Source: Terebella lapidaria (Eukaryota > Annelida > Polychaeta > Terebellida > Terebellidae). Taken from it: DNA of 64,000 nucleotides. Shown piece by piece: positions 15,601 to 55,104 of the stretch; position 1 is the first letter of the stretch, and the number at the start of each line of letters is the position of its first letter. The notes under the pieces are model-generated. The model was not told the origin of the DNA, searched no databases, and saw only the letters and a list, made by a program, of their open reading frames with translations. The stretch lies in NCBI GenBank assembly GCA_949152475.1, contig OX424557.1, positions 27,527,462 through 27,591,461 on the forward strand, given 5' to 3'. A program made the translations under genes and the position numbers.

Positions 15601-15637
<37 letters not shown>

Positions 15638-16667: not shown

Positions 16668-16816
16668 CCGTCCTCTGCTGTGACTTTGACAATGCAGCTA
16701 TTAACACCACTTCGCTGCCGTGTCTCTGTTCTGGACAAAGTTGTGAATTTGATCAGGTGACTGAACAGTTTGCCTGGAGGACTTATAGAGGCAACACGCC
16801 GAGTGTCTCTACATAG
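16668..16816 (+). pseudogene. Orphan half-MAM exon (unit 3)
   Basis: Third copy of the truncated exon at 7781-7929, upstream of the intact receptor. Confidence 0.75.
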
Positions 16817-18057: not shown

Positions 18058-18083
18058 TGTATCTCCAGACAATGAAAAAAAAA

Positions 18084-18449: not shown

Positions 18450-18619
18450 TGAGTCACGATCGTTCATTCGTGCATTACATTTGGTGGCTCGGCGGCAGTA
18501 TGACAACACGACAGGACGGCTAGAGTACCTGGCCCGGGTTATTTACTTCCTCCTTCACAGGAACATGGCGGCTCTAGGGATACTCCTACTGCTCCTCCTA
18601 CCCGGACTCTCTTCCGGAG
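18450..18619 (+). promoter_or_regulatory. 5' leader shared with the - strand phosphatase gene
   Basis: The stretch from GAGTCACGATCGTTCA to the exon 1 donor is nearly identical to the reverse complement of 55050-55219, including the ATG context GGAACATGGCGGCTC. Identical copies lie at 9567-9736 and 14013-14182. Upstream of it the receptor units have a LINE fragment and the phosphatase has unrelated sequence. Confidence 0.6.
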
Positions 18620-20037
18620 GTAAGGATATATGTGTATGACAAAAATGCGCACAAGTCGTGAATTTTACTACATATTTACAATTCGTCCTTTCGATTGTAC
18701 GACACATGTGAGTATTAGATTCAATTCGTGAAAATGAAAATGTCCACCAACAGTAAAATGGAAGACACTTTCTACCAGTCCCCTAAATATACACGAAAAT
18801 CATGTTACATGATGACCAAAACGTCTGAATTACTGTTGTACAATTTTATAAAATGTGCCACTGTCGCAGCCGTCCTCTGTTGTGACTTTGACACTGCCAC
18901 TGAGGGTTCCGCCGAGCTGCCGTGTCTGTGTTCTGGACAGAGCTGTATCTTAGATCGGGTGACTGAGAAGTTTTCCTGGACAGCTCACCAGGGTCGGACT
19001 CCAACTGCAAATGGAGGTTGGAATACAGGACCCAAGGACGACCACACGAGAGGTGACGGTTCAGGTCTCTATATATACACAGAAGTCTCTCAAGTCCCCA
19101 CAGACTCCGTGGCCGAGATCCGGACACCAGAGCTGAGTCTGAGTGTGACGTCATGTCTGACTTTCTGGTATCACATGAAGGGTTTTCACATGGGCGATCT
19201 GGAAGTGCTAGCTACATACACTGACGGTACAACCTCCGTCATCTGGGAAAGAGAGGGAGAACAGGGAGGTAATGTGGGTTTGTGTACATGTAGAGTCACC
19301 GTCAAGCATTGTTTTTGGCGACATACCATGTCATTCATTTTAACATGAGCTGGTACATATGCATGTGATGTATTAATCAAACACGAATCACTCTCCAGAC
19401 AACTGGCTGTTTGCGAACACAACCCTCAGTCCCAGTGTCGCCCAGGTCACGTTCAGATCCACGAGGCGTGGGGACTCTGATCAGCCACACGGAGACATGG
19501 CTCTGGATGACATCAGGATTGAGCAGGCGGACTGTGACACAGATACAAGACTTATCCCCTGTACACCAACGACCACTACCAGATCGTCTACAGCTGGCCA
19601 ATCTACCACTGCAGCACCAACATCTACTACACCAACCACAGTAACAGGCCTGAATACATATTAGTAGCGCTATTTTTGGACTCGTCAGCCCAGCTAAACA
19701 TGTCCCAGGGATTTTTTTTAGTAAACATTGATATGACTAAGTCGACATGTCTTAGGATTATTGTACAGTCAGCTTGTTGTAAATTATGATTGCACCGAAA
19801 TGCCTGCAAAGTATCTTTAAGACATCTGGTTTATTTAATACTATTTATTTTAATCAACTTAGTTGCATGTATAACACTTATAAACTGGAATACTTCACCT
19901 GTGCGTATATTACAACAATGATTACTTTGTGATAAATTTTATCAAAACATTAGCTTCAAGATTTCGGTAAACAAACGGAAATTGGGACAACAATTTGGGG
20001 CATGTCTGCGCCTAACTTACCCTCATTTATTATCATG

Positions 20038-20077
<40 letters not shown>

Positions 20078-21875
20078 TAACAATAATAATAATAATAATA
20101 ACAATAATAATGATATTATTAATTAATATCCCCATATGATTTCAGCTGTCCATTGTGACTTTGACACTGCCACTGTGGGCTCCAACTTGCTGCCGTGTGA
20201 GTGTTCTGGACGGAGCTGTGAGCTGGAGCAGGTCAATACTGACCACATGGACTGGACGGTAGAGCAGGGTCAGACACCGACAGGTGTAAGTATCCGTGGA
20301 TTAACAGGACCCGATAACGACCACACGAGAGACGACGGCTCAGGTCGCTACATCTACACAGAAATCACCAATGTCAACTATGGGTTAGTGGCAGAGATCC
20401 GGACACCAGAGCTGAGTCTGAGTGTGACGTCATGTCTGACTTTCTGGTATCATATGAAGGGTGAACACATCGGTGATCTACAACTGCTGACCACCGACAC
20501 TGATGGTACAAGCCTCGTCATCTGGGAGAGACAGGGAGAACAGGCAGGTAATATCTCATTTATCTATTTTACTAAACCCCTTCTGATATTCAAACGGAAA
20601 TCACCATATAAGTATCATAATGTCATGCATAGAACAAAATTCCGATACCCTCTCTCCACCTCCACACTAAATGAATTCAATACACCTCACCATTTTGAGA
20701 ACTGAGCCTATAGTTTGTGCCTGACACATCCAATGTCAATGTCATATTTGCATGTATTTATAAATCTGATATAGACAATTGGTTGACGGCGAACGTGACT
20801 CTCGACTCAATCATCGCACGAGTATCATTCAGGTCCATAAAGCGTTATGGACGAAGTGATCATTATGGAGACATCGCCCTGGACGATATCGATATTGTCG
20901 GACAGCCATGTGACACTTTAACAACAAAACAACCAATAGCTGTGACATCGACACCTCGGTCAACCACCACGAGGGCTTCCTACACCTCCGGCACCGCCAC
21001 AACGAACGAGCATGAGCCGAGCACGGCTGTACCAACGACTACACGGACCAGCACGGCTAAGACACGGACCAACGACAACCGTCCACTGCTGACCAGTACA
21101 AGCACAACAGAGGAGTTAACAGTGCTTTGTAAGCCGTTCCATCAGCATTTCATACAGTAAATTAAGTAGCCTTCATAATATTCATTTGATTCCAACCACA
21201 TCCTTCGTCATGCAAACATCATAAATTATGTCCAAAAATAACAATTCTGAATATTTTAAGGTGACCAATCATGTATTACTCCTTGGATCTTGTTCGGAGT
21301 AACACTCGCAGCACTTGTGGCGTCGATTGTTGTAATTGTGATTCTGTACAAGAGGATTCAACGTCTGCTTGCTACTGGAGCATCTCGATCAAATCAATCA
21401 CTCTACGTGAATGCTGATGTGCACACTCAGTTTGACGGTGTGAAAATCAACCAAGAGACCTGTAATCCAGCCTTCAGTCCAGACGTCCAGTACGAACCAG
21501 TTGGAGCGGATGCTAACAACAGAGCTCTGAGCGCGGATTACGTAAATAGCCCAGGAGTTCAGAAGTCCCCTCATGAAGACATCCCAGCAAACGGTACACA
21601 ATCCACAGTGGAGCGACAGAGTGATGATCAGTATGAACAGATGAAAATGGTAATCAGTTGGAATTAAACAAAATATGCAAAATGAATGGTCCATAATACC
21701 CTGATGTATTTTTTCAATTATACAATGAAAAAATAACGTTGTATATTTGGCGGTAATGAGGTACTGTACCCTAATGCTTACGGCATATTTCAGATACGAT
21801 TGTAACTGACCTATTGCGTCGTGTACATTGCAGGTTCGACTAGAGGCTCCTAATCCCTATGATGCATTGACCTGA
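18565..21875 (+). CDS. MAM-domain type I membrane receptor, no phosphatase
   Basis: Seven exons: 18565-18619, 18870-19268, 19399-19647, 20146-20547, 20775-21128, 21261-21649 and 21834-21875. They total 1890 nt, 629 residues. Order: signal peptide 1-18; MAM 1 about 19-195; Thr-rich linker; MAM 2 about 235-413; Thr/Ser-rich mucin-like stalk to ~486; membrane span about 496-516; cytoplasmic tail ~113 residues. The tail has Y535-VN, Y564-EPV, Y580-VN, Y611-EQM and Y625-DAL. YxN is the consensus for Grb2-type SH2 binding and YxxM for PI3K p85. No kinase or phosphatase domain follows. The ectodomain is paralogous to the - strand phosphatase. MAM domains mediate adhesion in type IIB phosphatases, so a cell-contact receptor or co-receptor is likely. 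The exon 3 donor is GC. Exon borders were chosen from phase continuity. Confidence 0.83.
20037..20113 (+). repeat. ATA/ATAACA microsatellite in receptor intron 3
   Basis: A run of ATA units interrupted by ACA. The counterparts at about 11158-11230 and 15600-15665 differ in copy number and account for most of the length difference between units. Confidence 0.9.
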
Positions 21876-25754: not shown

Positions 25755-27170
25755 GGAGTTCACGAGTTCTGTGATTGAGTGATGTCCTCAGCAGGAGCAC
25801 ACGACACAAGCTGTCAAGTGTCGGGTCGCTCAGTAACAATCAATCCATCATATAATAAATGAAATACTGACGTCAACTATTATCGGTAAGGCCTACATAG
25901 TATATGTGTTACCGCAATTCATGCAGTCAATTGGCATCATGAATGAACCCATTTGGAGTACACCTACATGGACATATAACCACATATTAAAATATGTAAA
26001 TATCGGAATTCCACCCGAGTACATGTAGATTAACTTCTAGTTTCACTCATGGAGACATTTGACTGAACTGGAGTTTTGAGGCAGTTTTACCTCTGACACG
26101 CACGACATCCCAATAACTATGTCACCAGAAACAATAATCTAATATTTATACGAATACGATTTTATTTACATCATTTACATTGTACAAATTCGCAGTTGTC
26201 TATGTTTTCCATATGAATCTGTCTTGCGCAATATGTACATGTATGATAATTTGATTGCTAAATGAAAAATCAGGCCAAGGGCCAAAGATAGGTTACCGGA
26301 CAATATATGTTTAATATTTTAGATGTTAGCAAGGTCACTGGTTAAATTCAAGTCAAGAGAATATTCAGCATATATAATATTAAGCATATAATATCCACAG
26401 TTGATTGCTAAGCTGCAAATTCAATAGTCAGAGAGATATTAGCAATTTTGTCCTGTGGCCTTGGAGTTCACGAGTTCTGTGATTGAGTGATGTCCTCATC
26501 AGGAGCACACGATACAAGCTTTCAAGTGTCGGGTCGCTCAGTAACAATCAATCCATCATATAATAAATGAAATACTGACGTCAACTATTATCGGTAAGGC
26601 CTACATAGTATATGTGTTAACGCAATTCATGCAGTCAATTGGCATCATGAATGAACCCATTTGGAGTACACCTACATGGACATATAACCACATATTAAAA
26701 TATGTAAATGTCGGAATTCCACCCGAGTACATGTAGATTAACTTCTAGTTTCACTCATGGAGACATTTGACTGAACTGGAGTTTTGAGGCAGTTTTACCT
26801 CTGACACGCACGACATCCCAATAACTATGTCACCAGAAACAATAATCTAATATTTATACGAATACGATTTTATTTACATCATTTACATTGTACAAATTCG
26901 CAGTTGTCTATGTTTTCCATATGAATCTGTCTTGCGCAATATGTACATGTATGATAATTTGATTGCTAAATGAAAAATCAGGCCAAGGGCCAAAGATAGG
27001 TTACCGGACAATATATGTTTAATATTTTAGATGTTAGCAAGGTCACTGGTTAAATTCAAGTCAAGAGAATATTCAGCATATATAATATTAAGCATATAAT
27101 ATCCACAGTTGATTGCTAAGCTGCAAATTCAATAGTCAGAGAGATATTAGCAATTTTGTCCTGTGGCCTT
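25755..27170 (+). repeat. 708-bp direct tandem duplication
   Basis: 25755-26462 and 26463-27170 are nearly identical (for example TATGTGTTACCGCAATTC versus TATGTGTTAACGCAATTC). The duplication spans the GGTTACCGG end of tandem-core copy 3, so that end appears twice (26291 and 26999). Confidence 0.95.
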
Positions 27171-28967
27171 GTAAATGAAGGCAAAGGTCAAATTCAAGGT
27201 CATCAGAATATTTGGCGTATAATATTTCCTATATGGCCTTCATTGATTCCCACACTATGAAGTCAATAAGTGTGATATTAGCCATTTTGTCCTATCACCT
27301 TGAAAATCAGGTCAAAGGAAACTTGAAATAAGGTCATTGGTCAAGTATAGGTCACGAGAATATTCATCATATATCATTTGGAGTTTGACCACAATTGATT
27401 CCAAAGTTGTAAAGTTTATAATAAGTGAGATATTAGCCATTTGTAATCTGACCTTGAAAATGAGGTCAAAAATCAAGGTCATGAGAATATTCAACATATA
27501 TCATTTCCTGTTCACAGTTGATTCCTAAGCTGTAAAGTCGATAATAAGCGAGACATTAGCCATTTTGTTTTGTTCTCTGATCTGCAAAATGAGGTCAAAT
27601 TCAAGGTCACAATTATATTCAGAATATATAATTTCCTATATGTTGACAATTGAACTCTAAGCTGTTAAGTCGGTAATAAGCGAGATATCAGCCATTTTGT
27701 GCTCTGACCTTGAAAATAAGTTCAAGGTCAAATTCAAGGTCATCAAAATATTCAGTGTACATGTATATCATTTTCTATATGTCCACAATTGGTTCCCAAG
27801 CCATAAAGTCAATAGAGGAGCAAGATATTAGCCATTTTGTCCTTTGACCTTTGAAATGAGGTCAAAGGTCGAATTCAAGGTCATGGCAATATTCACGCAT
27901 ATCATTTTCTATATGTTCACAATTGATTCCTGAGCTGTAAAATCGATAACATGGGGGATATTAGTCATTTTGTCCTGTGCTCTTGAAATTTAGGTCAAAT
28001 GCCATATTGAAGGTCGTGAGAATAATCTGTATATATACTTTCCTATATGTTCATAATTGATGCCTGGGCTGTAAAGTCGATTTGAAGCGAGATATTAGCC
28101 ATTTTGTCCTGTCACCTTGAAAATTCGGTCAAAGGTCAAATTCAAGGTCATGACAATATTCAGAATATATCATTTCCTATATGTTCATAATTGATTCCTA
28201 AGCTGTAAAGTCGATAACGAGCGAGATATCAGCCATTTTGTCCTGTGACCTTTGAAAAAGAGATCAAAGGTCAAATTCAAGGTCATCAAAATATTCAGCA
28301 TATATCATTTCCTATATGTCCACAATTCATTCCAAAGCTGTAAAATCTATAATAAGCGAGGTATAAGCCATTTTGTGCTCTGACCTTGAAACTCAAGTCA
28401 GAGGTGAAATTCAAGGTCACGAGAATATTCAGCATATTTCCTATATGTCCACAATTGATTCCTAGTCTCTAATCTCAATATTAAGTGAGATATTAGGCAT
28501 ACTGTGTCCCATTGTAAAGCATAGGAGTATTCAACATGGGTCCCATTTGGGCCGAGTTTGAGCCAAAATGGCCCACTTCGAGCAGAAATACATAACGAGA
28601 TGTTTCTCTGATATTTCTGCTTCGAGCCATTCAAGCGCAACGAAACTTGTACACATCATAGGAGTACATATGAGGAGTGTTATGTATGAAAAAGAAGAAA
28701 AATTACTGAACAGATTTTGAGAAATTGGCCGCCAAAGTCCAAAATCAGGCATTTCTCGTCGAAAACGGCCGCCATTTTGGAAAAAAAATGCGAAAATCAA
28801 GAAAGTAAAAAATACCTCCCTCTTGAATTATTTTTAAGCATTTTTGTGCAAAATTTCAGAAAAAATTCGCCCGTAAACAAGAACGATAATAATGTGGACG
28901 ACGGACGACGAACGACGACGGACGCAACGCCATGCCAATAGGTTATCGGACCATAGTTTCGGTAACC
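26291..28967 (-). mobile_element. Tandem-core non-autonomous element, copy 3
   Basis: Inverted relative to copy 1. It starts AGGTTACCGGACAATATATG (a second copy of this end at 26999 comes from the local duplication). It then has roughly ten ~130-bp core units with AAATTCAAGGTCA and ATTTCCTATATG motifs (27170-28500), a ~400-bp unique part matching 2300-2640 inverted, a GGACGACGGACGACG microsatellite, and the hairpin GGTTATCGGACC...CGGTAACC (28941-28967). No transposase. Confidence 0.65.
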
Positions 28968-28996
28968 TAAAGAAGTATGTCCGGAACTGATGGAGA

Positions 28997-29645
28997 ACAT
29001 TCAGGGTTCGTGTCTGTCCATCCTGGGTGATGTCCCTGGATGCTGTGATGTGCTGTGTACGGGATGTCTAAGATCACAACAGTCGGGTTTCGTGTCTGTA
29101 CACCCTTGGCGAGGTCCCTGGATGCGGTGATATTCTGTGTACGGGATGTTTAAGATCACAACAGTCGGGGTTCATGTCTGTCCATCCTGGGTGATGTCCC
29201 TGGATGCTGTGATGTGATGTGTATGGGATGTCTGAAATCACAACAGTCGAGGTTCGTGTCTGTCCACCCTGGGTGAGGTCCCTGGATGCTGTGATATTCC
29301 GTGTATGGGATGTCCAAGATCACAACAGTCGGGGTTCGTGTCTGTACACCCTGGGTGGTGTCCCTGGATGCTGTGATGTGCTGTGTATGGGATGTCTGAA
29401 ATCACAACAGTCGAGGTTCGTGTCTGTCCACCCTGGGTGAGGTCCCTGGATGCTGTGATATTCTGTGTATGGGATGTCCAAGATCACAACAGTCGGGGTT
29501 CGTGTCTGTACACCCTGGGTGGTGTCCCTGGATGATGTAATGTGCTGTGTATGGGATGTCTGAAATCACAACAGTCGGGGTTCGTGTCTGTCCATCCTGG
29601 GTGAGGTCCCTGGATGGTGTGATGTTCTGTGTACGGGATGTCTGC
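28997..29645. repeat. 82-bp minisatellite
   Basis: The motif ACAACAGTCGGGG recurs every 82 bp (ACAGTC at 29079, 29161, 29243, 29325, 29407, 29489 and 29571), giving about eight units. Two alternating subtypes (CTGAAATCACAACAGTCGAG and CCAAGATCACAACAGTCGGG) suggest dimer-wise expansion. Its right end overlaps the last coding exon of the bHLH gene on the minus strand. Confidence 0.95.
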
Positions 29646-32600
29646 CCGGCGTGACTGGATCTTGGCCAGGTATGCCAACGCTGTGTCGTCCATTGAAGTT
29701 GAATGGCCATGTCTGCAAAATAAGTATTGATTGAATAATAGAATTAAATAATAACGATAACAAAAAATCAACAATGAAAATAATACAATTTCAAGTACAT
29801 TTCAAATAAATAGTTTCTGTAGGTATATTTTTCGGGGAACTAAAAGTAATGAATAGACTTATGTTTCCATAAATAATTTGCATATTCGTATTGTATTCAT
29901 CCTTGATCTCAAACTGGCATAATTCATCATCATTGCCTTATTCACACCAAGTAAAAAAAAAAGATGTATATTGGTTCTCAATGTGAACGAAATCGTGTGT
30001 TTACCTGATTCTTATGAACTATTTTTTTTTATTTAGCAAAAGTTTCAATAATTAATTATGTTATATACATGTACTCGATTTGAGAACAGTGTTGTGACTA
30101 ATTCAAACGTTGTCACTTGACATAAAATATTTTTCGGTATTTTTATAGGTCCGTCATTGTCCGTGTGAGACCACGCAGACCACATGTATATATTGATATG
30201 GATATTGAGCATATAATAAAACGAATATCATTGTGTCTCGGGAACGTAGTTATTTACCCCCCCCCCCCCTCCCCTCACCTCTCCGAAAAAACGTAATACG
30301 TATTCTTCGGGAGGGAAAATTAACTACGTATTTACCTCCTCAAAGGTCAGTATTAAATTTGTATTCAATAGAAAATAAAACAGTATCACAACAAATTTCA
30401 CGTATGTGATATCATTTATATATCTGTTACATCTTTGATACATGTATTATCATTCAAATATTCCGACCTTTTCAAAAAAACAAAATTTTGTGGATATGTG
30501 TATTTTTATATTTTTGCGACTAATTGGATTTTACCTGTTTTAATCACAAAAAACGTATAAAAGCTTACATCATCAGTTTCTGCCTATTGCTCCAGTTACC
30601 CATTCCATAAATGCTATCAGCAATACGCTTATCGGTTCAGATGTTATTAAAACCTTATCTGATAACCGTTGTGACTCTATCAATGTTTACGATCTGCAGC
30701 AAGTTGCCTGGAGTCGTAAACAAAACACGGCTGTAATCAGACGGCTGATTTGTCGCGTAATTACAATCCCTCGTCACCCCCGTCCGTACACAGCCGGTAT
30801 ATTTAGAGTCGAAACCCAAACAAACCGATAAACAAACCTATCAGGGACTGGAATGGTCAGATAACCAACGATCAGGCCAACAAAGGATCGAGTAGAGGGA
30901 CGCAATTCACCCGGAGCCTCGTTATCAGATCCATACGTCCTCGTGCGACCATGGTAACCGATTCGATTGGCATAAATGCGGGCGTGTAATCGGTTATCGC
31001 CCTGGGTAGGGTGTGATACGGCATGACGGACCGCGAATAGGACATATGTTTACAGACCTTGTATATAGACTGGCCAGAATCCACATGAATTGATTTGCCG
31101 TGAAATTCCAGAAGTCGGGAAATGTTTGATGTCAGCTTGTACATGAGTTTGGAATGTTGGGTTGAGTTGATGAACAAATTCTAGGAAAGCCAGACTCCAG
31201 AACTCGAAACTTGAGGGTGAATAATACTGAACTTCAGTCTTGCACAAGAGTAAATTCAATCCTATTCACAAGCACTTTCAACAGGACACGGATGAGCATA
31301 CTAAGTAGGCCTAACAGCGTATATCTGTTTAGTTTCTTTTGATGCAATCAATTATCTTTAGACCGTCAGTACATATCATATAGCGCTACAAATGTATAGG
31401 TATATCCCGATACGTGGGATATATCGTGTAATACTTTACACAATTATTTATATTCATTTTGGTATCAACGAAATAGATTATCTGATTGTTTTGTGTCGTA
31501 GGTAGCCTACGACACTCACCCGAAGCTATTTCGTTTCGGATGAATCCCTAAAGCAGAAAATACTTTGCATAACTACATAATTGAAACCACACATAAACAT
31601 GCGAGTACGTACGGGTGGCTTGAAATGAATAATGGACAGTTTTCGGTGTCCATGAACTGTGCAAAAAGGTGTAGAATTGTCTTGTCACCGATGTCTGTGT
31701 ATAGAGTCCTGTGATCAGACACGTGACGAGAGATATCGGGCTGTACGCGGGACTTCAAACGCTCAGGACAGAATGGTTAACATACAGGTTGTCAGTAGAC
31801 CTATATACTCAACATAAAAGCAGGCTCCATCTTCGCCTTCGACGTATTACCAAATGCCAAGAAAAGAAAGATTAATAATATTATGGTCGTCTACTATTCC
31901 TCCAAATCTTAGGCATATTGTTGCTTTTATGGTGATGATTTCGCGGATGTTGCTCAAATGGTATGGACGGAATGTCTCTTTTTCATAATTCGCACTCATT
32001 GACGTATATTTAGAGCTATAGTGAGCCTACAATATAGGTTACCCTGAATTTTCTAACAAGTTCTTATCGTTTTTTCTTTACTGCGATGCTAAATGGTCGT
32101 ATTATGACTTGACATACTTATTAATTCAATTGAGAATTCCAGATTACACAAAAATGTTGATTTGATTTACCACTATACAAAACCGAGAAAATGCACAAAA
32201 TCGTGTGCAGAACCAGAAATTCAACGACGGGGCTAAACTCAACATTGGAGTAGATTGCCAACTTTTTAAATTTTCGCAATAGAAATCTGAAATTCGTTAG
32301 AAAATTGCCGTTCGACTCCCATGTGAAATATTCTTTATATGGGATAGTTAATATAAGTTATAATACGATATGATTTAGCATCGCAAAAATATAACAAAAA
32401 AACGATGTAAACAAGTTAGAAAAATCAGAGTAGAAAATTGTCGTTTGACTCCCAGGTGTGAAGTTTTCTAAGTTACATATTTAGCATCTCAATAATATGA
32501 GTCGGAAAAGACGACAGAGTCTATGGTTCATAATGAATTACCGAGAATACCACGCACCAGACTGAGTGGGTGTCCGTACGCCGCCTCGCTGCCTCCGTTG

Positions 32601-32992
32601 TTCAGCGGACCGTCAGTCCGGCCCTCAGCGTCGAACTGTCTGACAGCTGACGTAATCTGACAGCGGGAATGCAGCTCCGAGTTCTGTGCGCACTCATCCG
32701 TGACGTCCGCTCGGCCCCCGGACGTGACATCACTGGTAGTCGTCAGCTCCACGTGGTCGTCCTCGGCCAGGATCTGGCGGAGGTGGGCGATATAACAGGT
32801 GGCCAGGCGGAGCGTGTCGAGCTTGGAGAGTTTGGTGTCAGGCGGCACCCAGGGCAGGGTTGTCTTGAGCTTGGTGAAGGCCTTGCTCAGCACCCGCATG
32901 CGGTCGCGCTCTCGCTCGTTGGCGCAGTTACGCGGTTTGCTGTCGTCACTGTCCGAGAGAGGCGGTAGCGCGTCCTTCCGTCGACGTCCCAT
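29566..32992 (-). CDS. TCF21/musculin-type bHLH transcription factor, paralog A
   Basis: Exon 1 (32558-32992) encodes 145 residues; exon 2 (29566-29712) encodes 48 more, giving 193. The bHLH spans residues 21-75 with [20 protein letters not shown] and [20 protein letters not shown], diagnostic of the TCF21/MSC (Drosophila HLH54F) subfamily. These are class II factors that dimerise with E proteins on E-boxes in mesoderm and muscle. The intron sits between HPLSL and TWPF, the position I recall for vertebrate TCF21, which confirms exon 2. Donor GTGCGT; acceptor TTTTGCAG. Residue 26 in the basic region is Glu (NERER) where paralog B and vertebrate members have Ala. From about 20 codons into exon 2 the frame runs into an 82-bp minisatellite, which supplies the C-terminus and stop. 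Confidence 0.9.
32050..32440. repeat. Partial copy of the foldback family
   Basis: It contains AGATTGCCAACTTTTTAAAT, CAATAGAAATCTGAAATTCG, CGTTCGACTCCCATGTGAAA and TTAGCATCGCAAAAATATAA. These match the right arm of the element at 935-1513, without a full opposite arm. It lies in the intron of bHLH paralog A. Confidence 0.7.
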
Positions 32993-39397: not shown

Positions 39398-39403
39398 TTT
39401 ATT
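39398..39403 (-). terminator. Candidate polyadenylation signal of bHLH B
   Basis: TTTATT on the + strand (AATAAA on the minus strand), 101 nt past the bHLH B stop codon. Confidence 0.45.
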
Positions 39404-39503
39404 ATACACTGAATATAAAACCGACGTTAAAGTCAATTTTACACATTTTTTCTGCACAGTGTTGCAGAGAGTTTTTGAGGGTACACAGGCCGTTCTGATG
39501 ACG

Positions 39504-41213: not shown

Positions 41214-44200
41214 TGTTCTGCTGTCAAATGGCTGCTGTTCCTCTTTCTCTATATGGAATTCTTTTATCGCGTGGTTAAATATATCAGTTCAGTTTCTTTT
41301 ATGACATGTGCGGTTTGTCAAACAGTACTGTTGTTTAATGAACTGAAAATATTATTTTTAAAGGCGTGCTGTTGTGCAATATGATCACCAAAATGTAAAC
41401 ACTATGGCAGTAGTTTTTATAGGACATACGTGTTGCAGTACATGTGTTGGATGTTGTCGTCTGTATAAGCTCTGGCAACCATAAGATCCAATTGTACAGT
41501 CTTGTACTCGTGTAGGAACAACACATTTCTTGTACTCGCCGCGTGTACCAATCTGTCACATCCACTGAACCTCGACCAACCGTACCATTGACTCTATCCG
41601 AATATTCACGGTCTGTACTCCCTCATTCACTCTTTGTGCCACTATTTCTCGCACAACTGTCGGTATATAATGAGACATGTACAGATTAACCGAATATCAT
41701 CGATATTTTGTCACGGGTTGCGGTGCGATCGCCATACCCAAGTATAGTTGACACCTCGCCCGGATGACTCTTCAGTCGGAGTGCGATCTGGATCAATCGG
41801 GATCGATGCCTCGAGCGTGTGGCGGCCGCTGTGGCCGGGATCTGGCTGTCAATCACTGCCTGATGGGGCTGCAGCCATCCACTCACAGCACGGCTCACAC
41901 CAAGCAGGCCATGCAGGGAAGCCACGGCGCTCGGTACATGCAGTGGTCATGCAGATATTGTCCGTGCAGTATTCTCTATTCTCTAGTGTCAGAATACAAA
42001 AAGAACACATTTCTGCTAGCAATTAATGCTAATCAACGATCTTCGTCACATTACAGTATAATTAAAATACTGTGCTGTAATCGGTATAAATAGATAAAAC
42101 GTTTTTTTTTTCACAAATAGTCCCATATAAATACGGGCAACAGTGTGATTTTTGTACGAGCTCCGAAATAAGTACGTTATATATGTTTTATATTTCCACC
42201 TGTAATTTAATTTAAAGTGCCAATAAGTTTCTGCAAGAAATATACTATGAGAAATACTCTTCTGTGTGGTGGCACTATATCGGAGGTTCGCGTGACCACA
42301 CCCATACACCAGGGGGCGGGTCTATATGTCTGTACTCGGGAACAGGCAGCGGTCAGCCTGAACACAGAAGTCGACAATCAAAGGCGAGCAAGACCGTATA
42401 TCTTCACTTCACCGATGCCAATGAATATGTGCAAAATTGACTAATTTACAATGACAATGGCAATACAACTCTGGTAATTTCCGCTAATACAATTGCATGT
42501 ACGTGTATGTATGTGTGGGCTTATTATTTTCGACATTAGGCCCTACATTGGTACAGCACTAAACCGCAATTCTACGAAGGTACAGGTGGGCATATATTTT
42601 GTCAAGATCCTGATGGAGGCAGGCTGAACATGCTGAATCACGTTATGTATATTGTGCCGGGTCAGCTGAATGCCCCAGGGGATAAGACAACTGCAAGTTC
42701 ATATTGCCCGCGGGAGTGAAGCAGTTGGTCATATTGCCCGCGGCGAAACGATTGTTCATATTGGCGGGGAAACAACTGCTTGGTCGACAACTGTGTGATC
42801 ATCCTGTCGGTGCCGCATTGTCTTGAGATTCACAAATGTATACATACAAAAATAAATTGCTCGTCAGTTTGAGTAATTTTTTTACATAACTCATGCAGGA
42901 ATTTTATTGTGTTTTTTAATTTGATACTTGATGAAGTAACGGAGAATACTCCAATGCAGGGCCTATACAGACAAGGCTAACAATACTATAAGTACACATG
43001 GTGTAGGGAATGCGTCTTAAGGTTAGAGAGGCATTGACTGTACACGAATGACATCGAATGTCGTCAAAATATGAGGTGCAATCACAAAAGAATTCAAAAT
43101 AAAAGTAGCGAATTTAAGCCTAACTGTTGTGCCCATCAAAAAGAAACAACAACGTATGCAATGTAAAATGTCATTCATACAATCATACGTTAGCCATAAA
43201 TATAAATGGAGGATGTTGCTAAAATTATTCTTTATCAATTTTGGCAGTTATTATTTATAGTAGTCCTAGATAACTGTTTCCTTTCCAAACAGCGATCAAG
43301 CACATGAACTGTGTCTCTTAGATCGTATTACACATATATCTTGGGCTAATATTAGGATAAACAGCTTCAGGGAATATTTTTAGCCCATGAGAAGAGTTTC
43401 GGAAGCTAAGTTTGTGTTTACTAGGCGGTAGTTATCAGATATACCGGAAAAGCCACCATAGCATCTGATTTCCGGATTAAATTGATACAGAGCCACTCTT
43501 GGCGGGAATCCAGCGTCCAAGTCAAATACTATAGCTCCTATAAATAAATATGCACTATTTCTTTGGGCGATTATACAAAACGCTCGCACTTGCTCTCGAC
43601 ACGTAAAGGTAACATTCGCAACTGAAAATCGCTCGTTGGAGGAAAGTGATCTTTGTTTTTCCGAGAGGACCCTAGCGCGGGATCGTGGCCGACCCCACTT
43701 GCCATCGGATCCCGGTTTGTGAACGGACACCGGGTAAATAACGGCGCGGCCGCCCCCGGCAGGCACGGAGTCCAGATGTTACGTGTCGTCGGGCGCGGGA
43801 GCGGGCGGTTTGTTGTCTTCCCGTGGCAGGGACCGGGACTGTAACCGCCCTAGCTTTTGATATCCTGTGATGATGATGGGCATCTGTGTATATACGGGAC
43901 GTGTTTACGTATAAAATACTCTTTATGTCGGAGATAAACTATAACGTATACCGGCCGGCGGGCAAATCCATGCATCGAGGCAGTTTGCGGGAGCGCTACA
44001 GGTAAATCGAGAGAATACTGGATTCAAACTGAAAACGACCTCATCACCGTCTGTCACCAGCAAGAAAATAAACATTACTCGATAATTACTCGTCAGCCAT
44101 ATGTATCAGTCAATGAATTCAGTTATTCATCGTCTTGGCGTGTTACTTTTCGTGTCCAGGGCTGACAAATGAAAGCGGTTTTAATTCCTGAATAGCATTT

Positions 44201-46103: not shown

Positions 46104-46418
46104 CTATACGTTGCCGTACGGGTTGTCCGTTGGGCTTGAGCTACTGGTACTCTCCGACTTGGGTTTCTTCAAAATCCCCTTTTTAGGCTTGGTGTTGTTG
46201 TTGTCCTGGGGGTTCATGTCCACGACGGTGGTATTACCGTATGTGACCTCTGGAGTCCCCACGTTACCGTACATGGGCTCGACGTTACCGTACTCATTCT
46301 CCGCAGTTTGCACGTTACCGTACTCGTTCTCAGCCGTTCGCACGTGTCGTTGCGGGCTCTCCTGACTCGTGGCACCGAGTTGGTGTGCCGCCACCTCGTA
46401 CAAGTACTGGTACTCCTC
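46104..46418 (-). other. Phosphatase tail exon with five Tyr-Gly-Asn motifs
   Basis: After the last D2 helix ([14 protein letters not shown]) the tail carries ENEYGNV twice (Tyr1245, Tyr1255), MYGNV (Tyr1262), TYGNT (Tyr1272) and PYGNV at the very C-terminus (Tyr1313). pY-x-N is the core Grb2 SH2 ligand. Vertebrate RPTP-alpha has one such site in its tail. A basic [10 protein letters not shown] stretch (1291-1300) resembles the GILK docking motif of PP1 inhibitor-2. Confidence 0.9.
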
Positions 46419-49400
46419 CTGGGGATAGTACAATGTTTTATGCTTATCATATGATAATACATTCAAAATATGACACAATTAAACGGACACAATTGTCTTC
46501 TCCTTTCCGAATATGATCGATAGATGATATACATGTAGGTAGGCCCTAGTATGGAGCCATGTCTGGACTGACCAATGAGTTGAAGAACTGAGGCCGAGTT
46601 CGTGAGACGCTCCTTGCCGCCAGGAACGCGTCCACTTCATTCTCTGCCTTGAGCTTGTCCAGCATGAAACTGACGCCGCACAGCAGCCCGCTTGCACCCC
46701 GGCCGTTACTGAACGACGAGATAGGATATATGATGTATAGAAACAAGGATTGTCTGTCAATAATTAAATGTTTAGATAGTCTCCCTATCATTCAATAACT
46801 AATTAAAACTAGTGAAAATTATATTTGCATTTTGAAGAATGACAAAGCATGAACAGACCCAAATTGTCCCCTACAGTTTGCAATATAGGCCTATATTTTT
46901 TATCCAGCTGTTTTTGATTCCTGATGTTCAATTGTGAAATGTACAGTTTTATACGAAGCATAGAGTTACTGATGTAGATATCCACATATATATGCTCAAT
47001 TGTGACGGTACCGGGCGACCACGTTATGACTGATACTTAGAAGCAATGAACGACCACGTTATGACTGTGGATACTCACAAGCAGTGGACGAGCACCACGG
47101 GTGGCGATGCCTTGGTGGTGGACGCTCTCTGTTCCCTCCAGTTGTTGATGTGCTCCAGGAGGTCTGGGAGGGCAGAGATCCTCGGCGGCTTCTTGGAGTC
47201 CTCAGCCCAGCCCAGCAGCTGTATTTGCCGCACTCTTAGCTTGCTTTCGTCCTCCTGCATGGTGAAACATGGACAGATATGTCAAAACAGGCAATGTACA
47301 TGTACATGTATGGTAATTAGTATGCCACAGTAATGGACTCCGTGTCGGGTCCTAACCGGGTGAGCCTTGGTACAGACGACAAAGTCCCGACATATGACGT
47401 CATCCTGGAGCTCCTCAGCCCGGGTCAGCTCCACCAACATGGGGCCGTAGTTCTCCGTGGTCTGCTCCTCTTCCGGCCAGTACTGGGGATACAAAACATG
47501 GTCATTGGAGTCATAATCCTGTCTGTTGGTCAACTCGATGACAATTTTATCATAATGGGGCTAATTACTACTGGAAAAAGCACAGCTGGTGTTTAGAATA
47601 GAGTTTATTTTAAATTTATATTGGTGCTTTATAAATTATAAAATATTTATATATTGGATGTCTACGCTTCATCTGTTGGAACGCAGTTGTACCGTTTTGT
47701 CGGCGATGTCCAGTTCATTGAGCATGACGACGGTGTCGAGTTGACGGTCGTACACCAGTCTCCAGAAGTCCACGATGGTGTTTTGGAGGGGCATCTGGGT
47801 CACCACGAACCAGTCGTGGGCGTGGTAGCCCTACAATATATTACAGGATCCGACCAATCGCAGGTATTTATAGTGATTCATAGGCATTCAACATAATTCT
47901 GTGGAGCAATGTGACACCGACAATTATAAACGAGAGAAATGAATGATTGCAGAGTGACTCATATCTTCATTCAGCCTTTTCGAGTCCCAAGTGAACCATG
48001 TACCATGTGTTGTTTAAGTGTATGTCGTTGATACATGAATAGTTTGTTAAAACATTAATATAGCCCTGAATATATAAGTGTAGATATGTATAATGTGTAG
48101 TTAATTTCAGTTATTCAGTTAAATATTAGGCACCTATAGTTATCTATGCAGTGACCGTGTATTAACCATCTGTAGTCATACTACATTTAGATAGCCTACA
48201 GTGGGTGTTAGTGGTAGGCCTAAGCGTGGTGAATCCACACAACAATCGTCATGTTTCCCTCGTTATAAGTTTTTATGTGTGAAGCATTCGTCATGTAAAG
48301 CTGTCAGCTGTGGAACATATTAATACTGGTACATGTATTTTTGAATCTATATTAAGAAACACCCCTGGCCCGCCGATCATATTATTGGTTACGAGTGATG
48401 CCATCACTTCTGTGTTAGATCTATGCTACAAGTAGTACGCTGTCACCCAGATAACAACATTATCCTCACGTCGACTTGCACGGCGTTGATGTAGTCATTT
48501 CCCTTGCTATAGTGTGTCGACAGATAGGGCCTGTTGTTGTCATCTGTCAGCAACACACATACTATTCATGTAGCCAAATACAACTTGGTGGAACTAATAT
48601 CTATTACATGTACAGAGAGCACTTGTGTCCCACCAGGAACACCATTCTATCGTTGATGATAAAACCAGTAGCTGACTCAGACAGTGGGCCCGTGTGGAGA
48701 CACAGAGAGTGGGCCCGTGTGGAGAGGAGCCAGGTACGGACCTGGAATGAGCTGCAGGTCCCGGTTCTTGGTGGAGTTGACTGCGGTTCGACCACTCTTC
48801 TGGCTCTCATCCTCGACGGGCTTCAGCTCAGTCAGCAGCTACAGGGCGGGGCATATGTGCGACCAATAATTATCATATCCATGTACATTGCACCACTACA
48901 AGTACTATTCATCAATGATGATCAATGGCAATGTGGATATCCAACTAAAAGGTCAAATATATGTGGTTAAAATTACTTGATAGTGATATGTCTCTGAGAG
49001 AAGTTAATGTAATGAACCTTGAACTCTGCGGCAGATGCTGATTTGACGAGAGTGCGCTTTTTTGATGGGAAATCAATGGCACTGTATGATCTACCTCCAA
49101 CCTTGATGTTCTCGACCAGCAAGTCGTGTAGGAACACGTACTGGTCCTGTCAATGACATTAAATCTATTAGCAACACACTACCAATACAATGCATGATAT
49201 ATTACACGTTTTTTATGCGCCAATAATGTCTTCCCACAAACAGTGGACATATCGATACAGCTGATGCGTTCATCAGTCTATAAATTGCTGTAATACTGGT
49301 GGTGTCAGGATTGTAGCGATGCTAGCACCAGTTCATCTGCCACTACTACTGATACATCAATGACTCTTGTGTCAGAGATGGATGTGGGAGGTTGCGTCAT

Positions 49401-52400
49401 ATACTGACTCGCCCAACAGACACCTGTATCCCCCTAGAAGCTTACCGGTGTCTGTACGAGTTTCATCCTCTGCTTCCTGAGCTCCTGTACCGTCTGGTAG
49501 ATCTGGACCTGGTTCTCGTTGGTCAGCTGTCTGTTCAGGATGTCCAAGGCAATCAATGTCCCTGTCCTGCCCACTCCGGCACTACAGCGATATAGCGCAT
49601 CCAAGGAACAACATGAAGAAATTAATGGACTAACAGATATATAGGCCTAATATACATCTACAATATGATAACATAAACAGTGTTTTGTGATGTGAAATGG
49701 CGAATTGTTTTTAGTATCAGTAGTAGATTTATATAAAATTCCATATGACAGAAACGTACCTGCAGTGGACGACGAGTGGTCCTTTCTTGCCGCGGTCGTG
49801 TGAGTGGATCAGCCTGAGGAAGTTGTTCAGGGTGTGGGCTCCGTACCTGACCCTGCTCTTGTCAGTCCACGTCGTGAAGTGGAACTGAAGGATTTCTCTC
49901 GTCTCTTCCTCGCCCTGGCATCAGGTGATACAGGTCATCATAACGGTTTGAATTGCACTCGTCTCATAAAAACGACTCTCTTCAGCTGATAGTAGTTTTC
50001 ATAAGCCTGGCCTTGTTATGATTTGGTGGAGGTTTGAGAGGTCCACGTACCACTTTTTTGACGAGCAGGACCCTGACCACGGAATCTGCGATCTGCATAG
50101 CACTATGGACTGTCACTTCGTGTGTCTCATAGGACTCCGTGTCCCCAACACCTTCCGGCCAGTACTGCGCTACACGCTTCTGTACTCACAGAAACGAGAC
50201 GTCCATGGGTGAAAGGCCCCCAGATTACATGTTTAATAAAATAGACTTCATCCTACAGATGCTAGACCCACCCTGTACCCAGGCACCAGCAACGCTATGG
50301 AGACGCCCTGTAATCAACCAAACACTAGCCCCACCATGTAGCCATTCTTACCTTGCCATCCTCCTCCAGGTTGGCCAGCATCACGATCCTGTTGGCGCCC
50401 GTGATCCACACCATCCTCCAGAGGTCTGTCACTGTCGTCGGCTTGGGACCTGTACACAAAGATGATCTTTGCAATAGAATCACTACCGGTGTCTAATCTA
50501 GTCTGCATGTAACGTCTACAATTATATACCACATAACGGGTACACGAAGAGGAGGATTGCCCTGATAGTTTAGCTTACTATTGTTTACTTTATATTGAGT
50601 TAAATTTCACATTTAATATAATTTTATATATACAGACAATATATTTTTGTATGACACATTCCCAATGTATTGATATTCCATACCTTGTGACGCTATGTAA
50701 GCTTTCTCCTTTCCTCGGTAACCCTACGTGAATAAATTCATTTATTTCCAGAAACCACTCAACTGTGACTAGAGCAGGATCACAATGCAAAATTGAACAA
50801 TACAGAAATCCATGCAGTGCAATACCTTGATGTAGCTGGCGTTGATGAAACCATTGTCGTATTCATCATCAAGAATCACCCGCGTGTGATCATCTTTTCA
50901 GAGGAACATAATACGACAAACTGCACATAAATGCATATTCGAGCCAAAATATACTTACTTGATATATTTTAAATTTTTTTATGTGATTCTATAGTAAATG
51001 TAGTCTAGTGTGCCTTAAATTTCCGATATTCAGAGGCTAATAACATACATGGTAGAATGTCTTTGAAGCGGAGGTACTGTCTGTTCTGTGACAGGTTTGC
51101 TTCTGTACAGAGCTCCTTGTCATCGTCTGGCAGGGTCTGGAACAACGATATTTGGAAGAATAAACATTTGGTGGTATACTCAAGTTCAACACAAAACCTC
51201 ATATGATTTTCGGCCATAACTTCGTTTAGGATGGTCGGATCAAATTGAAATTTTATATATTTCCATTTGGCACAAAACCATATTTTTTCACCAAATTTCA
51301 GACTTCTATCTCGAAAACTAAAAAAGTTGGCAATCTACCCCAATGTTAAATGTTGGACATAAATCGGACCACAGAAAATCGAGCAATTATGGGGATTTCA
51401 TGCTCTTCATTCCGCTAAGAAACGTTATATGAGGAAAATTTTGGAGTTTGAAGAATCGTACAGGTGTTTTTTGATAACATATCATTCTTACAAAGTACTG
51501 TGCAATGCTAACCTCGTACAACATGCCAAATTATGTTCAGACTTGCAAATTTCCTGTTTGATGTGAAATTTAACATTGGGGTAGATTGCCAACTTTTTCT
51601 GTTTTCAAGATAGAAGTCTGAAATTTGGTGAAAAAATATGGTTTTATGCCAAATGGAAACAAACAAAATTTCAAATTGATCCAACAATCCAAAACGAAGT
51701 TATGGCCAAAAATCATATGAGGTTTTGTGTTGAACTTGACTTTAATGGTACGACAATTCGGATTCCACTTTCATTGGTCAGTGCTATGAAACTTTACCTC
51801 GTACTCGGCGTATAGCTCGGTCAGGTTTTCCTTTCGCTTCTTGACGTATTTCTCTAGTTGACCGGCCGGTATTGGCCCGGGCTCGGTGAATGGGGACACG
51901 GGGGATGTGGGCACGGGGATCAGGTCGGGGTCGGGAGCTTTCGTGTCAGAATCTGCCACAGACGCTGCTGACGGGCTCAAGGGTATACCTTATAGTAATA
52001 AATCGATATATTGAAACCGGCTTTGATTTCTTCGTGGATGGTGTGAATTTGAGTGGTATAAATACATAACTCATGTAACTCACCAAGTTCTGGGTCTTTC
52101 TTTTTATCTGCACCACTGAAATATGTAACCGGCCATTTCATGTATGATACCACCAGAGTCGCATTTATCTAGTACATTGGTAATTTGACTGATATATGAA
52201 AGGTAAAACACTATACATGCAATCCACCGGTATTCGCCGCTTCCAGATAAGGACAACGACGACGATGACGACGATACAGATGACAGCCACAGGGACGACT
52301 GAACCCGCCACCTTCTTTTGCAGTTCCCCTGTTTGTAACAATTTACAACAGTGTTACTTCTGCACCTTAACACGGTTACATATGACCATCTTCCTGAATA

Positions 52401-55104
52401 TATAGTGTAGAACGAGTTTCGTTCATTTCTGTGGAGGGTCGAGCAAGTTGAGCCACTTACTGCTTTCATCGGGGGATTGCGGGTTCTCCACTATACCCGT
52501 CGACCCTGTTTGCAACAACACAATCGGACTACTTATAGTGCGCAGAATATTCACATGGCGAAATGATTTTCAAAAAAGTTGAAGGATTTGCTGTTTAACT
52601 TGCCTATGCAAAGCGAAATATCTTGACGACTGCTTACAGAGCACATACGAACCTGTGGTTGACTCCTCTGTCGTGGCTGTACTAGTCAGTGATGGACGGA
52701 GGGTGGTGGTCTGTGTCTCCGCCGTGCTGTCCCGTGTAGTTGTAGGTGCAGCTGTGGTTGTGGCGGTGGTAGTGGTTGTTGTGACGGTAACGGGTGTAGT
52801 TGATGAGGTGCTGGAGGTGCTTGTGACGGTGACGGTGGTGGAGGGAGCCCTCGTGGTGGTTGTTAACTCTGGGGTCGATGTCACAGCGATCGGAGGTTCT
52901 GTTGTGTCAGTATCACAGGGTTGTTCAACAATATCGATATCGTCCAGGGCGATGTCTCCGTATGCCTCACTTTTTTCAGCACGTTTGATGGATCTGAACG
53001 AGACTCGTGAGACGCTTGGATCCAGAGTCGTGTTGGCGCTCAACCAGGTGTCTAAAGTTAAGTCAACGATATATTCAAAACTGTGTGTGATACGAACTTC
53101 TTCCCACTGTTTTTTCAATATTCATATCAGAAAAAATAACATGCCTGATGGTAGCAATACATCTCATGTTATTAGTTATACCATTTTTGTTCATGGAATA
53201 CGGTCTCGTGTGATACAAACAGCTAAACACAGATATATTTTTTGTATTCGAAACCATGGAGTAACGAATTTATCAATAATAAGAAACAAGAACACACTCG
53301 AACAAACACGACTCCGAATACATTCGATGTTCAGGATATGCTGAAGTTCATATATTGATAGGCTATACCTGTATATATGCTATATAACATACTTCCTCCT
53401 GCTCCCTGTCTCTCCCAGATGATTGATGTACCGTCAGTGTATATAGCTAGCACTTCCAGATAACCGATGTGTTCACCCTTCATGTGATACCAGAATGTCA
53501 AACATGACGTCACAATCAGACTCAGCTCTGGTGTCCGGATCTCTGCCACGGAGCCCCTGGGGACTTGAGTAATTTCGGTGTATATGTAGAAACCTGAGCC
53601 ATCGGCTTTTGTGTGGTCATCATCTGGTCCTGTGCGTTCCGAGGGTGTCTGACCCCTCTTCAGCGTCCAGTCCAAGTGGTCGTTAGTGACCTGCTCCAAC
53701 TCACAGCTCCGTCCAGAACACTCACACGGCAGCGCGATGGAGCCCATAGTGGCAGAGTCGAAGTCACAGTGGACAGCTGAAACAATTATAACACACTACA
53801 TGTATTATATTATTTCATTATTTTAGGATACTAATATCTATTTTTTATTATTATGCCGTACATGTACACTTGCCTGTTATTGGGGTGTCTCTCGTTGTCT
53901 CCGACATGGCGCTCGTAGTTGGTAAAGAGCTAGGAATTGGTGTCGTGGCTGGTGTAATAGTTTGTGTTGTGGTTGGTGTGGTGGTTAGTGTTGTGGTTGG
54001 TGTAGTGGTTGTTGTTGTGATTGGTGTATTGGTTAGTGAAATGGCAGGTGTAGGTGGAGATTCTGTAGGAGTTAGTTTTGTAGTGGTATGTTGACCAGCT
54101 GTAACCGGGTCAGAAAGTCCGGTGATGGTTGTTGGTGTACAAGGGACAACTGTTGTGCCTGAGTCACAGTCCGCCTCCTCAATCCTGATGTCATCCAGAG
54201 CCATGTCTCCTTGCGGCTCATCAGAGTTCGCACGCCTCGTGGATCGGAACGTGACCCGGGTGACACTGGGACTGAGGGTTGTATTCGCGAACAGCCAGTT
54301 GTCTGGGAGATGATTTGTGTTTTGATTAATACATAACATGGATACATGCATGTACTAGCTCATGTAAAAAATGACATTGTCTTGTGTCACTTACATAAAC
54401 CGTCATTAATTTCCTGTTGTCCCAATCTCTTCCAGATGACGGATGCTGTATCATTTGTGTATGTAGCAAGCACTTCCAGATCACCGATGTGTAAACCCTT
54501 CATATGATACCAGAATGTCAGACATGACGTCACACTCAGACTCAGCTCTGGTGTCCGGATCTCTGCCACGGAGTTTGTGGGGACTTTGGTGACTTCTGTG
54601 TAGATGTAGAGGCCTGAGCCGTCGCCTCTTGTGTGGTCATCATTGGGTCCTGTAGAACCACTCGGCGTACTGCCTTGATAGGCCCTCCAGGCAAACTGGT
54701 CTGTCACCTGATCGAATTCACAACTCTGTCCAGAACACAAACACGGCAGCAAAGTGGTGTTGATAGCAGCATTGTCAAAGTCACAACAGAGGACGGCTGC
54801 AAGAGTGGTGCATTTCATGGTGTTATACAACAGTAATGCAATCGTTCTGAACATCAAGTAATATGATTTTTCGTGTATTTTTATGTGACTGGCAGGAAAT
54901 GTCATCCGTTTTATTGTCAATACAAATTACCATCTTCACAAATAAATGTATTATATATGGTACAAGCAAAATAACTTCTAAAATATATGAATAGTAATAT
55001 TTATGTGTGCAAATGTTCATCATACATAAGAAGGCATATGATATTTTACCTCCAGAAGAGAGTCCGGGTAGGACGAGCAGTAGGAGTATCCCTAGAGCCG
55101 CCAT
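46104..55104 (-). CDS. Receptor-type tyrosine phosphatase with two MAM domains
   Basis: 24 exons, 3951 nt, 1316 residues, in frame throughout. Exons 5'-3': 55104-55050, 54796-54395, 54302-53874, 53776-53393, 53051-52653, 52505-52461, 52328-52217, 52115-52084, 51988-51798, 51136-51049, 50893-50826, 50723-50684, 50449-50352, 50176-50051, 49914-49760, 49581-49446, 49146-49018, 48838-48742, 48543-48470, 47830-47693, 47482-47357, 47254-47079, 46708-46573, 46418-46104. Order: signal 1-18, MAM 1, Thr-rich linker, MAM 2, Thr-rich linker, membrane span ~579-600, D1 ~690-915, D2 ~965-1210, tail. It would remove phosphate from phosphotyrosine at the plasma membrane. It lacks the Ig and fibronectin III domains of vertebrate MAM phosphatases (mu/kappa type). 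Intron 3 has a GC donor (CAG/GCAAGT). The start was chosen at the Met opening the hydrophobic signal. Confidence 0.93.
46573..49146 (-). other. Phosphatase domain D2 (pseudophosphatase)
   Basis: D2 keeps the fold signatures ([44 protein letters not shown]). The P-loop is HCFNGRGASG: Cys1166 remains but the phosphate-binding Arg is Ala1172. The WPD loop is [11 protein letters not shown]. It should be catalytically dead, as is common for receptor phosphatase D2 domains, which act in dimerisation and substrate recruitment. Confidence 0.88.
49446..51136 (-). other. Phosphatase domain D1 (catalytic, altered WPD loop)
   Basis: The ordered family motifs are present: [66 protein letters not shown], and the P-loop [16 protein letters not shown] with nucleophile Cys874 and Arg880. 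The general-acid loop reads W839-T840-D841-K-S-R where active family members have WPDHGVP: the Asp is kept, the Pro and the following residues are not. This may slow catalysis or change substrate preference. Confidence 0.88.
51181..51740. repeat. Foldback element, copy B, in a phosphatase intron
   Basis: Arms of ~180 bp (51181-51360 and 51561-51740) are near-perfect inverses, with outer edges CAAGTTCAACACAAAACCTC and its complement. Internal blocks ACCAAATTTCAGACTTCTATC and GGCAATCTACCCCAATGTTA are shared with the elements at 935-1513 and 32050-32440. It lies between coding exons 9 and 10. Confidence 0.88.
52217..52328 (-). other. Phosphatase transmembrane exon
   Basis: It encodes [20 protein letters not shown] flanked by KK outside and KRR inside, a single-pass type I anchor. 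The donor used is GCAT/GTATAG, because the closer GTGGAT site would put a stop into the next exon. The span is unrelated in sequence to that of the + strand receptor. Confidence 0.85.
52653..54796 (-). other. Phosphatase ectodomain: MAM 1, linker, MAM 2, mucin stalk
   Basis: Each MAM domain is split over two exons at the same place (before DNW/YNW/NTW) and every join is phase 1. The second exon of each pair also encodes a Thr/Pro-rich segment ([10 protein letters not shown] and [17 protein letters not shown] types), a likely O-glycosylated stalk. Family marks are [12 protein letters not shown] or [40 protein letters not shown] and ALDDI. The layout is the same as in the + strand receptor at 18.9-21.1 kb. 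Confidence 0.9.

Follow-up and report, generated by a model that had tools for sequence, protein, structure and literature searches.

Two MAM domains on both a receptor tyrosine phosphatase and short-tailed receptors of Terebella lapidaria: a candidate recombining gene cluster

The best-known receptor pairs with opposite tails belong to vertebrate immunity. In the vertebrate systems an ITIM (immunoreceptor tyrosine-based inhibitory motif) recruits an SHP phosphatase, whereas at the locus described here the phosphatase is itself the cytoplasmic part of a receptor. The locus lies in a 64,000-nucleotide stretch of the genome of the polychaete Terebella lapidaria (contig C3:27527462-27591461; the whole stretch is called the window), which holds a receptor tyrosine phosphatase with two MAM domains and, on the opposite strand, a short-tailed receptor (rec1) with a paralogous ectodomain; a second such receptor, rec2, precedes the window. 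Draper of Drosophila differs from it in being one alternatively spliced gene with an EGF-type ectodomain and in recruiting the phosphatase Corkscrew rather than having one built in. RPTP-alpha, in work of den Hertog from 1994, is said to carry a C-terminal Grb2 site, Tyr789. The T. lapidaria phosphatase resembles it in having Grb2-type sites at its C-terminus and differs in having five of them (YGN) instead of one, and in its MAM domains, which RPTP-alpha lacks.

Other described systems come close in single respects. The vertebrate SIRP, LILR and FcR-like families likewise combine linked paralogous ectodomains, tails of opposite sign and rapid exchange. Draper-I and Draper-II bear an activating ITAM (immunoreceptor tyrosine-based activation motif) tail and an inhibitory, phosphatase-recruiting ITIM tail on one receptor (passages in PMC4503800), and in Botryllus the fester co-receptors form an invertebrate multigene family whose tails are of ITIM, hemITAM and Yxx[ILV] type; invertebrates therefore have both activating and inhibitory tyrosine tails. 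The fester co-receptors differ from the present genes in their Ig and sushi ectodomains, and a phosphatase with the same ectodomain does not appear in the cited sections (PMC12065747). Class C scavenger receptors (dSR-CI, MjSRC) are invertebrate MAM receptors too, and MjSRC binds its target through MAM; they also contain CCP domains (sections of PMC5222524), whereas no CCP domain, and hence no combination of CCP with MAM, was found here. Type IIB phosphatases (PTPRM, PTPRK) resemble the T. lapidaria phosphatase in their MAM, transmembrane segment (TM) and two phosphatase domains, D1 and D2, so that MAM plus two protein tyrosine phosphatase (PTP) domains are present in both; in them a single MAM is followed by one Ig and four FN3 domains (section of PMC9800333), where the present protein has two MAM domains and Thr-rich stalks. 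Besides the lack of Ig and FN3 domains, the PDB chains closest to the MAM domains (queried with the rec1 ectodomain) and to the catalytic region speak against type IIB membership. In a limited search of open-licence literature, no title described a phosphatase and a docking receptor with the same ectodomain.

From the DNA alone, we consider the chances even that MAM-MAM single-pass receptor genes form a recombining cluster in this region, one ectodomain being carried by a phosphatase as well as by docking tails, with signalling by the tails and dephosphorylation by the phosphatase. The first line of evidence is the ectodomain. The rec1 gene encodes 629 residues in seven exons, with the frame open over all junctions, in the order signal peptide, MAM, Thr-rich linker, MAM, Thr-rich stalk, TM and tail. 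The phosphatase follows the same plan as far as the membrane and continues into a different TM, D1, D2 and its own tail. Pfam, applied to rec1, rec2 and the phosphatase at E 0.001, places two MAM domains in rec1 and in the phosphatase; Y_phosphatase is confined to the phosphatase, where it occurs twice. The earlier note on this DNA had held that the two genes have leader, signal peptide, both MAM domains, exon boundaries and Thr-rich linkers in common and that their membrane and cytoplasmic parts are unrelated. Alignment bears out both points: 134/174 aligned residues are identical in MAM1 and 127/173 in MAM2, exons 1-5 agree in the phase at which they end, and the likeness does not extend to the TM and cytoplasmic parts. 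A 173-nt stretch of leader and exon 1 is 96% identical, above the coding arms (82-87%), and its four genome matches are the three rec1 units described below and the phosphatase. This likeness is far beyond chance and supports common descent of the ectodomains. The arrangement is that of paired receptors, namely linked paralogous ectodomains with different cytoplasmic parts.

The likeness is also mosaic. When rec1, rec2 and the phosphatase are compared in 80-base steps, rec1 is 88-98% identical to the phosphatase and 39-42% to rec2 over the leader (18441-18600), mostly nearer rec2 in exon 2, and again nearer the phosphatase (91%) than rec2 (79%) at the start of exon 3. At 20761-20920, the phosphatase and rec2 are 85% identical to each other, and rec1 is 62-76% identical to either. 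We infer that such a pattern fits exchange between neighbouring genes. A tree of nine MAM domains, as the earlier note had proposed, groups rec1 MAM1 with rec2 MAM1 (87/91) and the three MAM2 domains together (81/98); these groupings are seen, but none of the six inner branches is starred as strongly supported, and the tree does not tell which gene first owned the ectodomain. Among solved structures in the PDB, the rec1 ectodomain is nearest enteropeptidase, MDGA1 and neuropilin-1. Its nine matches include an SR-C-like scavenger receptor chain, and PTPRK is the weakest of them.

The second line of evidence is that rec1 has relatives. The genome searched comprises 438 contigs with 761.6 Mb in all, and the MAM search gave at least 116 matches with the best 150 of 215 candidates scored. 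The closest receptor, rec2 (C3:27520411-27523924; positions 12950-16463 of the joined loci L009 and L010), lies 3.5-7 kb before the window; it encodes 649 residues in an open frame, has the seven exons and phases of rec1, and is identical to it at 141/178 residues in MAM1, 134/179 in MAM2 and 49/100 in the tail. Queried with the rec1 TM and tail, the genome returned three matches: rec1, rec2 and C5:32779683. On contig C5, a gene that we call C5a has a MAM without a located start, a TM like that of rec1 and a tail with YEPV, GYVN, EYDN and EYVN, together with one FN3 domain barely above the Pfam cut-off (25.1 vs 25); its exons presumably form one gene. A further copy of the C5 tail, C5b (C5:32602121-32603555), is 81-85% identical, lies in distant pieces and looks decayed; it was excluded from the motif, tree and selection counts. 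Two single-MAM genes on C3 complete the set. For c32 (32.52 Mb) a small local search finds the TM alike over 32 residues (41%, E 8e-4), and its tail lacks the tyrosine motifs listed for C5a; in c36 (36.76 Mb) the MAM, presumably in one gene with what follows, precedes a TM that differs and a tail bearing YSNI and YDNM. Given these relatives (rec2, C5a, c32 and c36), the docking receptor is a member of a small family. That rec1 is a lone chance fusion is ruled out, since rec2 and the C5 gene have related TMs and tails. At about C3:36.76-36.77 Mb (loci L012/L013), the MAM gene c36 is tandemly duplicated over 2605 bases at 99.96% and 1748 bases at 100%.

The third line of evidence is the tails. 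The three motifs that the earlier note had read in the rec1 tail (YVN, YVN and YEQM) are all there, and YEPV and YDAL stand with them, giving the series YVN, YEPV, YVN, YEQM, YDAL; the corresponding series in rec2 is DVN, YETI, a deletion, YEQM and YDGL. Common to both receptors is an ITAM-like pair, DDQYEQM-x10-PYD(A/G)LT. The pattern [DE]xxYxx[LIM]-x6-12-Yxx[LI], which was widened to M after inspection of the sequences, arises in 0.12% of 20000 shuffled rec1 tails and in 0.02% for rec2. The YxN motif fares unevenly: shuffling gives P 0.07 for rec1, 0.007 for C5a and 0.035 for c36, and rec2 and c32 have none. Docking through YxN, which the earlier note had assigned to the receptor, does not extend to rec2, and conservation of YVN was dropped as a main support given its absence there and the P of 0.07 in rec1, which is not beyond chance. 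For YxxM in rec1, shuffling gives P 0.10.

The phosphatase completes the case. In D1 the P-loop retains its Cys and Arg, the WPD loop its Asp and the Q-loop (QTPDQ) its Gln, as in receptor-type classical PTPs; these are residues of well-known roles (HCX5R, WPD-loop Asp, Q-loop Gln), and D1 appears intact. D2 domains are often inactive, and the one here looks inactive because its P-loop, HCFNGRGASG, lacks the CX5R Arg. Behind D2, all five tyrosines of the tail (5/5) stand in YxN, a result reached in 0/20000 shuffles, and the tail used as a genome query has one match at E 0.1, itself. YxN is a Grb2-type motif, so that the phosphatase may dock the adaptor that the earlier note had given to the receptor. 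Among PDB chains, those nearest the catalytic region are PTPRS and LAR. Among the matches listed, no other phosphatase match on C3 lies within 50 kb of a MAM match, by eye, and this absence of other MAM-phosphatase neighbours favours the possibility that the phosphatase captured the ectodomain. Elsewhere, MAM and phosphatase matches on C1 (43638539-43639540 and 43696918-43697730) are separated by 57 kb on a single strand and are perhaps another MAM phosphatase; on C8 such matches lie 44 kb apart on opposite strands.

These elements would combine as follows. A single module of leader, signal peptide, two MAM domains and Thr-rich stalks would have been joined, as cytoplasmic parts, to both a two-domain phosphatase and short tyrosine tails, and exchange between neighbouring genes would have made the mosaic. 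Engagement of the ectodomain would lead to phosphorylation of the short tails by a Src-type kinase, upon which the YEQM-x10-YD(A/G)L pair would recruit SH2 proteins, either PI3-kinase p85 or a Syk/Shark-type kinase. The phosphatase would engage the same or a related ligand, remove phosphate nearby on the same membrane and dock Grb2 through its own YGN tail. With a nearly identical outer part on a family of short tails, the receptors could sense the same thing with different intracellular effects, and an antagonistic receptor pair is plausible.

Several observations weigh against this reading. A common ligand is an assumption. Of the earlier note's interpretation, an intact-looking D1 and a type of tyrosine tail that recurs in the genome are borne out; the opposite effects on tyrosine signalling are too simple a description because the phosphatase itself carries five YGN sites. 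The gene models were assembled by hand from splice sites and frames, and in rec1 the exon 3 donor is poor (5/9 matches to U1) and the exon 5 donor is the second lowest among 35 scored sites. The YVN sites are missing from rec2, the tail of c32 has neither YxN nor YxxM, and the strict ITAM, Yxx[LI]-x6-12-Yxx[LI], is absent owing to the M of YEQM, although spacing and second half fit. Selection, measured as the ratio of nonsynonymous to synonymous change (dN/dS; three-sequence Nei-Gojobori with bootstrap intervals, which exchange between copies can distort), is mixed. On the rec1 branch the ratio is 0.27 in MAM1 (0.10-0.65) and 0.27 in MAM2 (0.15-0.50), which supports purifying selection on both domains. 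On the rec2 branch it is 0.73 in MAM1 (0.35-1.91) and 0.36 in MAM2 (0.15-1.08), and on the phosphatase branch 0.36 in MAM1 (0.21-0.63) and, less clearly, 0.59 in MAM2 (0.33-1.31). Three of these six intervals include 1, so selection is clear on the rec1 MAM domains and less so elsewhere. Between rec1 and rec2, the 26 codons of the TM stand at 0.14 and the tail at 1.12 (0.66-1.93), with no constraint detected overall; constraint on the whole tail was accordingly rejected as an argument. The C-terminal 22 codons stand at 0.90 with a very wide interval.

The doubts about rec1 can be carried further, to the tentative possibility that this gene itself is failing, yielding a secreted fragment or nothing, and that only rec2 and the phosphatase work. 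All three genes have a GC donor at intron 3, which matches U1 at 8/9 positions in the phosphatase (gcaagt), 7/9 in rec2 (gcatgt) and 5/9 in rec1 (gcctga). If the rec1 intron remained unspliced, the frame would stop at 19662-19664, after TTVTGLNTY, and failure of the donor may thus give a secreted one-MAM protein. An in-frame GT alternative after 19560, assessed by hand, also looks weak and would lose the Cys behind MAM1; skipping of exon 3 (249 bases) keeps the frame and breaks MAM1. The end of two tandem copies of rec1 inside exon 5 (see below) and the lack of visible constraint in the evolution of the rec1 tail point the same way. Against failure stand the open rec1 frames, the branch dN/dS of 0.27 in each MAM, the presence of the GC donor in all three genes, and the 13 GT donors among the 35 sites (the rec1 exon 5 donor included) that score below the rec1 GC donor at the other seven positions. 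Considering the donor and the truncated copies, rec1 may be made in soluble or impaired form, and rec2 is the sounder candidate for a present-day partner of the phosphatase.

A different function for the short tails is rather unlikely, though it draws on the same motifs. The short-tailed genes would be scavenger or phagocytic receptors whose MAM domains bind microbes or debris and whose YxxPhi motifs drive clathrin uptake, and the phosphatase ectodomain would be an unpaired by-product of recombination among adjacent genes. All three tyrosine motifs that rec1 and rec2 have in common (YEPV/YETI, YEQM and YDAL/YDGL) are YxxPhi, and Yxx[LIVM] is in excess over shuffled tails (P 0.008 in rec1, 0.0095 in rec2). 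Because YxxPhi overlaps SH2 motifs, this excess cannot separate uptake from docking. In shrimp, a class C scavenger receptor uses its MAM to bind the target and is taken up by clathrin (sections of PMC5222524), and the SR-C-like chain among the nine PDB matches of rec1 agrees with such a role; the missing CCP domain, which the shrimp receptor has, and the richness of the C5a and c36 tails in YxN speak against it.

The 5' part of rec1 is an approximately 4.44-kb unit present in three near-identical copies, with 3 substitutions and 2 internal indels among them, the indels within simple repeats. Because the break falls inside exon 5, that exon is cut short in units 1 and 2, which have neither TM nor tail; read onward, they stop after a 16-residue stretch. 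If spliced, they would yield a soluble MAM-MAM protein. Each unit also has a 124-residue frame on the minus strand (8661-9035, 13111-13485, 17548-17922), for which Pfam gives no match at E 0.01. An origin of the three copies in an assembly error, or in a polymorphism of the sequenced individual, is doubtful. In its favour are the small number of differences and a second near-perfect tandem duplication, in the c36 MAM gene (99.96% over 2605 bases); against it, the copies are not wholly identical and have clean breakpoints, which fall within exon 5 and a 21-nt repeat.

A stronger claim than a recombining cluster would be a true invertebrate paired-receptor system with the phosphatase itself as the inhibitory partner, ITAM-like docking receptors opposite it, secreted MAM-MAM decoys, and recombination that keeps the ectodomain and the promoter leader alike, in a manner resembling ectodomain exchange among the paired immune receptors of vertebrates; as a whole this appears improbable. 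Least probable of all is a homophilic adhesion pair in which the MAM domains of phosphatase and receptor bind one another: the MAM domains of type IIB phosphatases do take part in such adhesion, but the known interface runs from MAM-Ig to FN1 (section of PMC9800333), which makes type IIB a poor model here, Pfam finds neither Ig nor FN3 in the phosphatase, rec1 or rec2, the solved MAM domains nearest rec1 belong to other families, and the analogy drawn by the earlier note therefore fails to transfer.

Table 1. Positions of the phosphatase, rec1 and tandem-unit features in the window (position 1 is its first letter).
Feature	Position	Strand	Remarks
MAM-MAM receptor tyrosine phosphatase	46104..55104	-	1317 residues, 24 exons, one open frame
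Phosphatase D1 exons	49018..51136	-	10-residue stretch intact, WTD for WPD loop, Q-loop Gln kept
Phosphatase D2 exons	46573..48838	-	P-loop HCFNGRGASG without CX5R Arg
Phosphatase C-terminal stretch, five YGN motifs	46107..46322	-	
Tandem unit 1	7575..12024	+	leader, exons 1-4, truncated exon 5; without TM or tail
Tandem unit 2	12025..16461	+	like unit 1; reading ends in a 20-residue stretch
Tandem unit 3	16462..20905	+	runs on into rest of exon 5, TM and tail
Phosphatase-type MAM exon 2 fragment near each unit's start	7775..7926, 12225-12376, 16662-16813	+	88% to 54802-54651
rec1, MAM-MAM-Thr-rich stalk-TM-tyrosine tail receptor	18565..21875	+	hand-built model; exons 18565-18619, 18870-19268, 19399-19647, 20146-20547, 20775-21128, 21261-21649, 21834-21875
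rec1 leader and exon 1	18451..18623	+	96% identical to 55218-55046 (-)
rec1 MAM domain 1	18870..19535	+	exon 18870-19268 and start of exon 19399-19647
rec1 MAM domain 2	20146..20911	+	exon 20146-20547 and start of exon 20775-21128
rec1 exon 3 donor CAG/gcctga	19645..19653	+	GC; U1 matches 5/9
rec1 transmembrane segment	21284..21346	+	dN/dS 0.14 vs rec2
rec1 YVN 1	21404..21412	+	DVN in rec2
rec1 YEPV, ITIM-like (VQYEPV)	21491..21502	+	YETI in rec2, YEPV in C5a
rec1 YVN 2	21539..21547	+	within deletion in rec2
rec1 YEQM, first half of ITAM-like pair	21632..21643	+	kept in rec2
rec1 YDAL, second half of ITAM-like pair, last exon	21858..21869	+	YDGL in rec2

Between rec1 and the phosphatase lie two paralogous basic helix-loop-helix genes on the minus strand (32528-33001 and 40815-41288; Pfam HLH 3e-17 and 5e-17). 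The window further contains two arrays of 134-base tandem repeats (2507-4129 and 27099-28486), mutually inverted and about 82-87% identical, and an array of an 82-base tandem repeat at 28914-29705.

Receptor-phosphatase-type exons are plentiful on C3, C4 (41.1-41.7 Mb) and C15. The two genome searches for them gave at least 170 matches (with the best 150 of 395 candidates scored) and at least 85 matches, and exons akin to those of D1 and D2 abound, C3 having many of them. This suggests that receptor phosphatases have expanded greatly in this genome, and a family of MAM receptors with tyrosine tails coexists with it. If the reading of a recombining cluster is true, T. lapidaria would provide an example from the invertebrates of a receptor with the opposing enzyme built in, at a locus with signs of exchange and of unequal duplication.

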